From NCBI GenBank assembly GCA_900473185.1, contig UCKU01000003.1, forward strand, positions 112,382 through 176,381: a stretch of DNA of 64,000 nucleotides, in the 5' to 3' direction. This document shows, piece after piece, positions 12,935-15,590 of this stretch (positions are counted from its first letter, which is position 1; the number at the start of each line of letters is the position of its first letter). The DNA is from Hyphomicrobiales bacterium (GTDB lineage: Bacteria; Pseudomonadota; Alphaproteobacteria; Rhizobiales; Rhizobiaceae). The position numbers and the translations under genes were made by a program. A model generated the notes under the pieces. It was not told the DNA's origin, ran no database searches, and worked only from the letters and a program-made list of their open reading frames with translations.

Positions 12935-14482
12935 CTAAGCCGCCACTCTCCTCGGAAACAGCACGGCGTCCGACGCCGTCCTGACCCCGTCAACGACAAG
13001 CGGCGTCTCATAGACATCAGGCACCTCAATCCCAAGCCTTGAATGCAGTGCCTCCGCTGATCGCGGCAGGAAGGGCAGGAGGCAGCGAGCAACGATCGCC
13101 AGTCCATAGACCTGCTCAGCAAGGCAGCCGCCAAGACGATCAACCGTCGCCTGCCGTTCTGCCAGCGTGAGATCGCCAAGCAGCGCCTTCGCATCCGCCC
13201 ATGGAGCGCGTTTGGCAAAACGCCGGTTCGCCTCGCCGACAAAGGCGAAGACATCCGCAAGGCCGACATGCAGCTCATAAGCATCGAAAGCCTCGGCTAC
13301 TTTCGCTGGAAGGCGCGTCGCCTCCTGCGTGAAATCACTCTCCTGCAGCGGCGGAACGACCCCTCCGAAAGCAGACGCGACAAGTGCCAGCACCCGGTTG
13401 GCGAGATTGCCGAGCTGGCCGCCAAGCTCTCCTGTCCATGCCGCTTCCAGACGCTCGGCCGAGAAGTCGCCATCGTCACCGGAGCGGATATGCCGGAGCA
13501 GGTAATAGCGCAGCGCATCCGGCGTACCGTAGGCGTCGATGATGGCTTCCGGGTCGATGCCATTGCCGGCGGATTTGCCGATCTTTCTGCCGTCGACCGT
13601 CACATAGCCATGCACCGATATCGACGACGGCGGCGGCAGACCAGCCGCGAGGAGGATAGCCGGCCAATAGATGGCATGAAATTTCGAGATGCCCTTGCCG
13701 ACGACATGGATGCGCTCACCGCTGGCTGTCCAGTAACGATTGAATAGTGTCGGATCAGAGCCATAGCCGAGGCCGGTCAGATAGTTCGCCAGCGCGTCGA
13801 ACCAGACATAGACGACCTCGTCGCTCTCGGGCACGGCAACACCCCAGCCACGTGCCCGCTCGGCGCTGCGCGACACGCTGATATCGTCGAGTCCGCGCCG
13901 CAGCAGGGCCAGCACCTCATTGCGCCGGTGGGCCGGCACGATGGCGAGTTCGCCGGTCTCGATCAGTTGCAGGATGCGGTCGCCATAGCGGGAGAGGCGG
14001 AAGAACCAGTTCTCCTCGCGGACGAGTTCGAGAGGGATGCCGTGTTCCGGGCAGCGCCCGTCAGTGAGTTCCGACGCCTCGTAGAACTGCTCGCAACCGA
14101 CGCAATAGAGGCCCTCATAGGCCTTGCGATAGAGGTCACCATTCGCAGCACAAGCCTTCCACAAGGCGTGCACGCAGGCGACATGCCTTGGATCGCGCGA
14201 GGTGCGCACGAATTCGTCGTTGGAAATATCGAGCCGTGTCCCCAACTGCTCGAAGCGGTCGGCATTGGCGTTGACGAAATCCGCCACAGGCAGGCCGGCG
14301 GCTTCCGCCGAGCGAACGTTCTTCAGGCTGTTGTCATCGGTACCGCACTGGAACCGCACATCGCGGCCAAGCAGGCGGAAGTGGCGCGCATAGGCATCGG
14401 CCTGCACGAGTTCGAGCGCAAAGCCCACATGCGGGGCGGCGTTCACGTAGGGGATCGAGGTGGTGATATAGGTCTTGTTCAT
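12935..14482 (-). CDS. metG: Methionyl-tRNA synthetase, atypical (second-type)
   Basis: Class I synthetase that charges tRNA with methionine. The HIGH motif is PHVGFALE at about residues 17-24 and the KMSKS motif is changed to GRKIGKSAGNG. A zinc-knuckle candidate is CVGC followed about 15 residues later by CPEH. 515 residues, with no C-terminal tRNA-binding extension. The active-site motifs differ from the usual housekeeping alphaproteobacterial form, so this is probably a second MetRS; whether a standard copy exists lies outside the window. AAGGA precedes ATG 14482. Expression appears to be set by the leader-peptide attenuator at 14531-14640. Confidence 0.88.
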   Translation of the reverse strand: MNKTYITTSIPYVNAAPHVGFALELVQADAYARHFRLLGRDVRFQCGTDDNSLKNVRSAEAAGLPVADFVNANADRFEQLGTRLDISNDEFVRTSRDPRHVACVHALWKACAANGDLYRKAYEGLYCVGCEQFYEASELTDGRCPEHGIPLELVREENWFFRLSRYGDRILQLIETGELAIVPAHRRNEVLALLRRGLDDISVSRSAERARGWGVAVPESDEVVYVWFDALANYLTGLGYGSDPTLFNRYWTASGERIHVVGKGISKFHAIYWPAILLAAGLPPPSSISVHGYVTVDGRKIGKSAGNGIDPEAIIDAYGTPDALRYYLLRHIRSGDDGDFSAERLEAAWTGELGGQLGNLANRVLALVASAFGGVVPPLQESDFTQEATRLPAKVAEAFDAYELHVGLADVFAFVGEANRRFAKRAPWADAKALLGDLTLAERQATVDRLGGCLAEQVYGLAIVARCLLPFLPRSAEALHSRLGIEVPDVYETPLVVDGVRTASDAVLFPRRVAA

Positions 14483-14530
14483 CGGTTGATCCTTTCGAAG
14501 GCTGGTTGCCCCGCGAGACGGATCGCCAAA

Positions 14531-14604
14531 TGAAAAGACCGCCTCAAGGGCGGTCGCTGGTGCATTCTGGACGCACGAAACCCGCCACGCTATGAGCGCG
14601 GCAT
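14531..14604 (-). promoter_or_regulatory. Transcription attenuator of the methionyl-tRNA synthetase gene
   Basis: Reading the minus strand, three structures can be drawn. The protector hairpin pairs 14602-14595 with 14591-14584 (GCCGCGCT/AGCGTGGC, 8 bp with one G-U). A possible antiterminator pairs GGCGG (14586-14582) with CCGCC (14553-14549) around an inner GTGC/GCAC stem (14576-14573 with 14563-14560). The terminator is GACCGCC-CTTGA-GGCGGTC (14555-14537) followed by TTTTCATTT. Protector and antiterminator share bases, as do antiterminator and terminator, so they exclude each other. The three Met codons end where the protector starts. A ribosome stalled there would block the protector and favour readthrough. 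This is the standard trp-type logic; folding energies were not computed. Confidence 0.85.
14537..14555 (-). terminator. Attenuator terminator hairpin before metG
   Basis: Perfect 7-bp stem GACCGCC/GGCGGTC with a five-base CTTGA loop, followed on the minus strand by TTTTCATTT. It lies 54 bases upstream of the metG start codon, not at a gene end, which marks it as regulatory. Confidence 0.9.
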
Positions 14605-14640
14605 CATCATCACTGACGTGCTGATTGCGGTTCTGTCCAT
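14590..14640 (-). CDS. Met-rich leader peptide of the MetRS attenuator
   Basis: A 16-codon ORF encoding MDRTAISTSVMMMPRS and ending in TAG. Three consecutive ATG codons occupy 14610-14602. No Shine-Dalgarno sequence precedes the start. The upstream promoter-like sequence would place +1 at or within two bases of the A of ATG, so the leader may be translated from a leaderless mRNA, as known for the rhizobial trp leader. Its likely role is to sense Met-tRNA charging by ribosome stalling, not to act as a peptide. Confidence 0.82.
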   Translation of the reverse strand: MDRTAISTSVMMMPRS

Positions 14641-14648
14641 GCGGGATG

Positions 14649-14677
14649 TGGTATCACCCGGCGCGAATTCAGACAAG
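14649..14677 (-). promoter_or_regulatory. Putative promoter of the metG leader transcript
   Basis: CTTGTC (14677-14672), a 17-base spacer and ATACCA (14654-14649) on the minus strand. The ATG of the leader peptide begins eight bases after the -10-like hexamer, so transcription would begin at about 14642-14640. It fits in the 44 bases between the lysR stop and the leader ATG. Confidence 0.55.
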
Positions 14678-14684
14678 CGCGGCC

Positions 14685-15590
14685 TCAGGCATTTTCCGCG
14701 GGATGAAATTTCAATGCCTCAACCAGCATCGTGAAGGCGGGCGAGGGATGCCGCCTTGACGGGTAGTAGAGATGATAGCCGGGAAAGGGTGGGGACCATT
14801 CGTCCAGCACCTGCACGAGGCGCCCGCTGTCCAGATATTGCCTGACGACGTCTTCGTGGACAAAGGCCAAGCCATAACCATCGAGTGCCGCCCTGATCAT
14901 CTGCGGCACGCCATTGAACGCGACTTGCCCATCGACCCTGACGCGCATCTCATGTCCGTCACGTTCGAATTCCCAGGGATAGAAGCCGCCATAGGTTGGC
15001 AGGCGTATGTTGATGCATCGATGCGCCGTCAGTTCCTGCGGCGAGGCGGGCGCCGGTCTTTCTGCCAGATATGACGGAGCACCCACGACGATCATTCGCG
15101 CCAGCGGCCCGATGCGAACGGCGATCATGTCCTTTTCCACCTGGTCGCCAAGCCGGACGCCGGCATCGAAGCGCTCCGCGACAATATCCGTCAACGCCAG
15201 ATCTGCGATCAGCTCGACCTTGATGTCGGGATAGTCGGCCAGGAATTTCGACAGCTTCGGCCACAGAAGCGTGTCGATCGCATGCTGGCCGGCGGTGATC
15301 CTGAAACTTCCCGCAGGCTTTTCCCGGTATTCGCTCAGTGCTGACAGTTGCGCGTCGATGCTGCCGAATGCCGGGCTGAGCGTTGCCAGCAGTTGTTCGC
15401 CTGCCGTCGTCGGCGCGAGACTGCGCGTCGTGCGGGTCAGCAGGCGTACGCCCAACCGTTCCTCCAGCCGGCGAATAATGAGGCTGAGCGATGACTGCGA
15501 TGTTCCGAGACGCGCAGCCGCCTTGGTAAAGCTCTGCTCCTCGGCAACCGCCAGAAACGCCATGAGATCGCCCAGGTCTTCGCGCCGCAT
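14685..15590 (-). CDS. LysR-family transcriptional regulator
   Basis: A 301-residue regulator. The N-terminal winged helix (AFLAVAEEQSFTKAAARLGT, then SQSSLSLIIRRLEERLGVRL) is followed by the periplasmic-binding-like effector domain starting near residue 90. It is divergent from the DUF2255/CMD/AKR run at 15706-17834 and probably controls it. The intergenic region contains an ATATAAG...TCATAT partial dyad near 15603-15622 that fits a loose T-N11-A LysR site. Confidence 0.92.
   Translation of the reverse strand: MRREDLGDLMAFLAVAEEQSFTKAAARLGTSQSSLSLIIRRLEERLGVRLLTRTTRSLAPTTAGEQLLATLSPAFGSIDAQLSALSEYREKPAGSFRITAGQHAIDTLLWPKLSKFLADYPDIKVELIADLALTDIVAERFDAGVRLGDQVEKDMIAVRIGPLARMIVVGAPSYLAERPAPASPQELTAHRCINIRLPTYGGFYPWEFERDGHEMRVRVDGQVAFNGVPQMIRAALDGYGLAFVHEDVVRQYLDSGRLVQVLDEWSPPFPGYHLYYPSRRHPSPAFTMLVEALKFHPAENA

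Follow-up and report, generated by a model that had tools for sequence, protein, structure and literature searches.

Analysis of a 64,000-nucleotide stretch of Rhizobiaceae DNA (hereafter the window) uncovered, upstream of a methionyl-tRNA synthetase (MetRS) gene, a short leader region that we interpret with high confidence as a ribosome-mediated transcription attenuator, through which an auxiliary MetRS would be controlled by the charging of elongator Met-tRNA. The auxiliary metG gene is very probably expressed only when charged Met-tRNA is short. Sequence comparison supports this reading in three ways: the leader open reading frame (ORF), its Met codons, and the RNA helices are conserved; the unit is absent before housekeeping metG genes; and Met codons recur in leaders of unrelated sequence.

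The first-pass annotation of this DNA had proposed a promoter-like pair next to a leader AUG, a 16-codon ORF with three Met codons, a protector hairpin, an alternative GGCGG:CCGCC pairing, and a perfect terminator, and each of these elements can be read directly in the window (Table 1). The protector comprises 8 pairs, one of them G-U, and starts on the final base of the third Met codon. The 5-bp antiterminator GGCGG:CCGCC encloses the middle hairpin. The perfect terminator is the sole terminator-like site in positions 14400-14800 (shuffle mean 0.3), and AAAGG is found upstream of the metG start.

Table 1 Features of the leader region and its flanking genes in the window.
Feature	Position	Strand	Basis or detail
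LysR-type gene	ends 14685	minus	upstream neighbour of leader region
Putative promoter	14648..14677	minus	read in sequence; spacing kept in homologues
-35-like CTTGTC	14677-14672	minus	read directly
Extended -10-like TGATACCAC	14656-14648	minus	read directly; end 7 nt before leader AUG
Leader ORF MDRTAISTSVMMMPRS*, 16 codons, apparently leaderless	14590..14640	minus	ATG 14640; stop TAG 14592-14590
Three consecutive Met codons (putative regulatory codons)	14602..14610	minus	codon conservation
Protector hairpin (segments 1:2)	14584..14602	minus	GCCGCGCT 14602-14595 with AGCGTGGC 14591-14584
Antiterminator 5′ arm GGCGG (segment 2)	14582..14586	minus	can pair with 14549-14553
Middle hairpin GTGCGT/ATGCAC	14560..14576	minus	enclosed by antiterminator
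Antiterminator 3′ arm CCGCC (segment 3)	14549..14553	minus	inside terminator 5′ arm
Intrinsic terminator (segments 3:4) and U tract	14533..14555	minus	GACCGCC-CTTGA-GGCGGTC 14555-14537, then TTTT
Auxiliary methionyl-tRNA synthetase gene metG, 515 aa	12935..14482	minus	TIGR00398 above cut-off; ATG 14482

The assignment of the downstream gene to MetRS holds, with the refinement that, judged by its identity to the second copy and its place in a tree, it is an auxiliary rather than the housekeeping enzyme. A second MetRS gene is present in the genome besides the housekeeping copy; the window protein and the genome's other MetRS, encoded on another contig, share 41% identity. Auxiliary copies occur in 36/148 genomes of the genus Rhizobium, which makes this an accessory gene; 32 genomes have a close copy (73-100% identity) and 4 a divergent one (51-56%), and the best match in the remaining Rhizobium genomes is ≤43% identical to the window MetRS. 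Plasmids of Rhizobium, Sinorhizobium, and Agrobacterium carry copies with 71-76% identity, and those with 49-51% identity are plasmid-borne in Embleya and Streptomyces. When the L134 protein was searched against 398 Pseudomonadota genomes (E 1e-115), the window genome alone matched, and three of 397 genomes of the order matched at E 1e-125; the auxiliary gene is therefore rare outside Rhizobium in those samples. A further MetRS-like gene was present in 9/9 genomes examined, that of genome G537 being confirmed by TIGR00398.

In a midpoint-rooted tree of 46 hand-chosen MetRS rows, 30 form an auxiliary group with support of 97/94, and four housekeeping rows fall outside it. Within the group, 23 rows have leaders with adjacent Met codons, three carry Met codons singly or spaced apart, and four (L133, L081, L082, and L084) have no such leader. 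Since the Met-codon leaders lie inside the auxiliary group, the leader tracks the auxiliary lineage. No Met-codon leader was found before the housekeeping metG in 20 Rhizobium genomes, in the window genome, or in three actinomycetes; the 0/20 count in Rhizobium led us to reject the idea of a feature shared with housekeeping metG.

Conservation of the leader ORF among Rhizobiaceae centers on its Met codons. Two to four clustered Met codons are present in the leaders of 32/32 close copies, the window included; the run reads MMM in 26 of the first 30 copies and MMMM, MM, MTM, and MVM in one each, and the peptide ahead of it varies among copies. In a set of 38 distinct leaders (Rhizobiaceae and close relatives), ATG stands at the three positions in 36, 36, and 37 cases, respectively, and the codon directly before the run is GTG in 22. 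Indels between the leader start and the Met run are multiples of three, and the distance from the start to the Pro/Leu position is 12, 13, or 14 whole codons in 45/45 homologues; L022 has a single-base indel at its stop codon, and L028 has one in its middle hairpin. Clustering of at least two Met codons was likewise seen in 31/31 loci (L051-L080 and L083) drawn from the best 80 of 217 relatives, many of these loci sharing genomes; L079 among them is the homologue of the laboratory strain Rhizobium johnstonii 3841. As in trp-type attenuators, the region carries a short, translated-looking ORF with clustered cognate codons. The covariance model scored >90 bits in 4/394 sampled family genomes, each time upstream of auxiliary metG. 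Matches with E ≤ 0.001 were found in 16/394 genomes, and those other than the four were mostly terminators behind coding sequence.

Three individual loci deserve mention. One other covariance-model match is leader-like (L038, G309:C3:148756-148870), with MNNTHKTNLSIMTTVH read by eye, a hairpin, and a terminator, and the gene after it resembles, by eye, a small SnoaL/DUF4440-type protein. At L073 (Rhizobiales), the run reads MMV, the antiterminator arm is altered, and there is no U tract, so that leader and switch seem to be decaying together. The auxiliary MetRS of L131 (G031:C63:170190-171727) appears as two overlapping matches in different frames behind an intact leader.

Upstream of the leader, 45/45 Rhizobiaceae and related homologues keep a TTG hexamer at exactly 17 nt ahead of the TANNNN of a TGNTANNNN element, and this element ends 5-7 nt ahead of the leader AUG in all of them, a fixed spacing that fits the proposed promoter-like pair. 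A strict sigma-70 consensus scan of 14400-14800 found no promoter. The spacing is what a promoter for a leaderless transcript would show and would place the transcript start at the leader AUG. The claim that the leader has no Shine-Dalgarno sequence stands for the window, where none is evident, but is not absolute, because AGGA, GGAG, or GAGG occurs ≤15 nt from the leader AUG in 9/45 homologues; most of these fall within the -10-like element.

The window RNA has a fold z-score of -2.16, and in the folding model the complete RNA adopts the protector, the middle hairpin, and the terminator. If the terminator 3′ arm is absent and a ribosome covers ≥10 nt beginning at the Met run, the best fold includes the antiterminator; in the nascent RNA, its modelled probability rises from 0.00 when free to 0.97 with 12 nt covered, in agreement with the earlier proposal that a stalled ribosome would block the protector and allow the antiterminator. 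Once the whole terminator is present, the best fold contains it again, whether or not the 5′ part is covered, so the switch would be kinetic. Base pairs were computed for each leader (L157, for example, switches and L172 does not), and coverage raises the antiterminator probability by more than 0.5 in 36/40 Rhizobiaceae, 1/4 divergent alphaproteobacterial, 0/1 Armatimonadota, and 3/18 actinomycete leaders. The antiterminator is modelled even without a ribosome in 11/18 actinomycete and 3/4 divergent alphaproteobacterial leaders, and it forms in neither state in the Armatimonadota leader. Two further features of trp-type attenuators are found: a stall-favoured antiterminator exclusive with both protector and terminator, in the window and 36/40 Rhizobiaceae leaders, and an intrinsic terminator between leader and gene, which is weaker in actinomycetes, where many terminators have no U tract.

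Protector, terminator, and antiterminator together were recovered in 40/41 Rhizobiaceae sequences (shuffles 3%), 4/4 divergent alphaproteobacterial sequences (0.6%), 1/2 from Armatimonadota and Gemmatimonadota (0%), and 18/26 from actinomycetes (11%). These counts cover distinct sequences, with L006, L015, and five actinomycete loci, all lacking an adjacent ATG pair, left out along with duplicates, and they use a relaxed rule written after misses under a stricter one, by which three helices were found in 11/19 hand-chosen representatives. The alignment of orthologues suggested in the first-pass annotation confirms the conserved Met codons and stems, with paired cells in the 38 sequences reaching 99.7% for the protector, 100% for the terminator, 99.5% for the antiterminator, and 94.7% for the middle hairpin. 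Compensatory changes, named there as a further check, were scarce: the first pair of the terminator (G-C, G-U, or A-U) is the only one changed on both sides, covariation counts in the Rhizobiaceae helices were no better than in shuffles, and none was seen for the antiterminator among the 38 sequences. With so little variation among the sequences, covariation is weak. The segment 14495-14532 (GATCCGYCT...), lying between terminator and metG, is conserved as well and, by eye, could pair with GGATC at the ribosome-binding site; as a candidate fifth segment pairing with the terminator 3′ arm, it did not stand out from shuffles (median p 0.46 in Rhizobiaceae and 0.32 in actinomycetes).

In the mechanism that we propose, RNA polymerase would start at the leader AUG or immediately beside it. 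If Met-tRNA suffices, the ribosome would reach the stop codon where, judging from its size, it would cover GGCGG, so that the antiterminator is blocked and the terminator halts transcription. With Met-tRNA short, the ribosome would wait on the Met codons, and a stall at any of the three should, again from ribosome size, cover the protector 5′ arm; GGCGG would then pair with CCGCC before the terminator 3′ arm exists, giving readthrough into metG. We infer the transcription start, the stalling, the termination, and the response to charging alike. A Met-codon attenuator seems self-contradictory, since translation of its leader cannot begin unless initiator tRNA is charged; the switch would therefore operate only as long as initiation continues and elongator charging is the limiting step, and deep loss of Met-tRNA should shut it off.

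The reading as ribosome-mediated Met attenuation gains further support from leaders of unrelated sequence, which show no evident commonality beyond Met codons and switch hairpins. Divergent Rhizobium copies carry MSNAIHILKSMMRPC, MSNEIDIHKSMMRPC, and MIEKFKSLMKFRMMRRFAMKR (3/4, the fourth copy having no leader), and examples from actinomycetes include MTQCTQPMMRPVQGPLRVR, MHTSTLRMMRPAAGPTGVR, MNWVASALTAAEMMPR, and MNAQVMMAR, with MITPSRQHRMMPRTRGC and MITRSFQMMPRRRGC on plasmids of Streptomyces NBC_01558 and Embleya NBC_00896, respectively. Leaders of the form MCMMSSF... precede 4/5 Gemmatimonadota copies (the fifth has none), and an Armatimonadota contig encodes ...GMMMSRVW.... A leader rule, defined as two adjacent ATG codons in an ORF of 5-45 codons within 260 nt upstream, was satisfied by 30/32 close Rhizobiaceae, 4/5 divergent alphaproteobacterial, and 28/33 actinomycete auxiliary copies, against a background of 0.5-4% in shuffles and 1-2% in random windows of the same loci. 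The gene was present in 34 actinomycete genomes, whose matches were analysed apart from G625, G661, G596, and G583; four of the five actinomycete misses have a leader with one Met codon and the fifth has spaced Met codons. Among other MetRS loci, the rule was satisfied in 2/44, namely L088 and L092 (Gemmatimonadota and Armatimonadota), both of which fall in the auxiliary group.

Beyond the helices, conservation in Rhizobiaceae also runs high in the loops and the middle hairpin (mean column identity 85-89%), which speaks for a terminated leader RNA or peptide acting mainly in trans, with attenuation secondary; rnTrpL and peTrpL of Sinorhizobium meliloti (PMC7298713) offer a rhizobial precedent. 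The unrelated leaders, however, retain only Met codons and hairpins, which fits a role in cis, and we consider a mainly trans-acting product unlikely, though the leader product may have an additional role in trans. It is very unlikely that the leader works by nascent-peptide or drug-induced arrest, in the manner of erm leaders, with the peptide and not Met-tRNA being sensed: antibiotic-sensing leader peptides exist, but here Met codons are the recurring part of unrelated leaders and the target gene encodes MetRS. That the terminator merely ends the LysR-type gene, with the ORF arising by chance and metG having a start of its own downstream, accords with the same-strand position of that gene and with the gap of only ~50 nt from terminator to metG. 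Yet the leader-terminator unit is kept before metG though its neighbours differ (no family besides MetRS in >6/35 loci; 3-kb flanks, ORFs ≥120 aa), and the Met codons are both conserved and found in unrelated leaders; we rejected this combination, which is now highly improbable, on leader conservation, the leader-rule counts, and the differing neighbours. Equally implausible is a riboswitch in which RNA would bind a metabolite such as SAM independently of translation, for although S. meliloti metA and metZ carry SAM-II riboswitches (PMC9373788), no Rfam match, T-box and SAM riboswitches included, reached the gathering score in the whole window or E = 1 in ten other loci, which excluded a known Rfam RNA, and the leader types have no evident common sequence beyond Met codons and switch hairpins.

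Given an attenuator that responds to Met-tRNA charging, the module may have a role in resistance. The window enzyme carries HVGF and KIGKS motifs, as opposed to HIGH and KMSKS in the housekeeping copy, and HxGH is found in nine of eleven actinomycete rows compared; the changed motifs may alter the inhibitor sensitivity of the auxiliary MetRS. Tentatively, and as a possibility that we would not yet call probable, the Met-codon leader and the auxiliary MetRS with altered HIGH/KMSKS form a horizontally mobile module for inducible resistance, whose leaders were replaced or remade several times with the logic kept across at least three phyla. Inhibition of the housekeeping MetRS by natural products, or damage to it, would lower elongator Met-tRNA, upon which the attenuator would open and a tolerant MetRS restore charging. 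Plain Met starvation and enzyme damage are alternatives to MetRS-inhibitor resistance. With a natural Met-codon attenuator in several phyla, one can examine how elongator charging is distinguished from initiator charging. The leader is also a possible reporter for Met-tRNA charging, and inducible spare MetRS genes, as a class, may lead to natural MetRS inhibitors.

Attenuators before aminoacyl-tRNA synthetase (aaRS) genes are already known. In the E. coli pheST attenuator, the Phe codons of the pheM leader control a housekeeping aaRS; the two systems share an aaRS gene under codons of its own amino acid and differ in that amino acid and in the housekeeping nature of the enzyme. Vecchione and Sello reportedly described, in 2010, a ribosome-mediated attenuator with cognate codon for an auxiliary TrpRS of Streptomyces. 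The likeness lies in a second aaRS whose cognate codon governs ribosome-mediated attenuation; unlike that case, the system here involves Met and MetRS, spans Alphaproteobacteria, Actinomycetes, Gemmatimonadota, and one Armatimonadota locus, and involves an enzyme whose resistance is only conjectural.

In S. meliloti trpL, the transcript starts at the AUG of a leaderless leader ORF (PMC7298713). The Rhizobiaceae leaders resemble rhizobial trpL in the apparently leaderless ORF, the run of cognate codons, the mutually exclusive structures, the terminator, and the family in which they occur; they differ in using Met instead of Trp and in serving an aaRS instead of biosynthesis, and the likeness drawn here concerns architecture. 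A search of the window genome with a trpL-like leader pattern gave four matches, none resembling a trpL-like leader. In Streptomyces lividans, leader peptides, several of them leaderless, precede leuS, trpS, alaS, and thrS, and metL precedes the metNIQ transporter with spaced Met codons and no clear terminator (PMC8079986). These leaders are similar in lying upstream of aaRS genes and in including a Met-containing case; metL, however, serves a transporter, and the table of PMC8079986, as available, has no MetRS leader. PMC1262725 reports trpS and leuS attenuators in some Streptomyces and no conserved RNA structures upstream of methionine operons in Actinobacteria. The earlier statement that no alphaproteobacterial MetRS attenuator of this sort had been described agrees with the literature searched, in which no Met-codon MetRS attenuator was found (judged by title and start of abstract, with subscription papers mostly outside the search). 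The logic itself extends beyond Rhizobiaceae.

The best Rfam similarity was to RF00624 (Pseudomonas P9), which has the same order of codon-like repeat, hairpin, spacer, and terminator; scores of 24.7, 28.7, and 22.2 bits did not reach its gathering cut-off of 43. Unlike the Met leaders, the P9 consensus begins with the Ile-like AUUAUUAUU, and P9 looks like an Ile-codon attenuator. One Rhizobium locus (L216, G044:C12:85722-85801) has a P9 match over the cut-off, with a leaderless-looking ORF MCNVRRTSLQIILAIH (by eye) that contains two adjacent Ile codons, followed by hairpins and a terminator; the gene after them resembles, by eye, a P-loop kinase.
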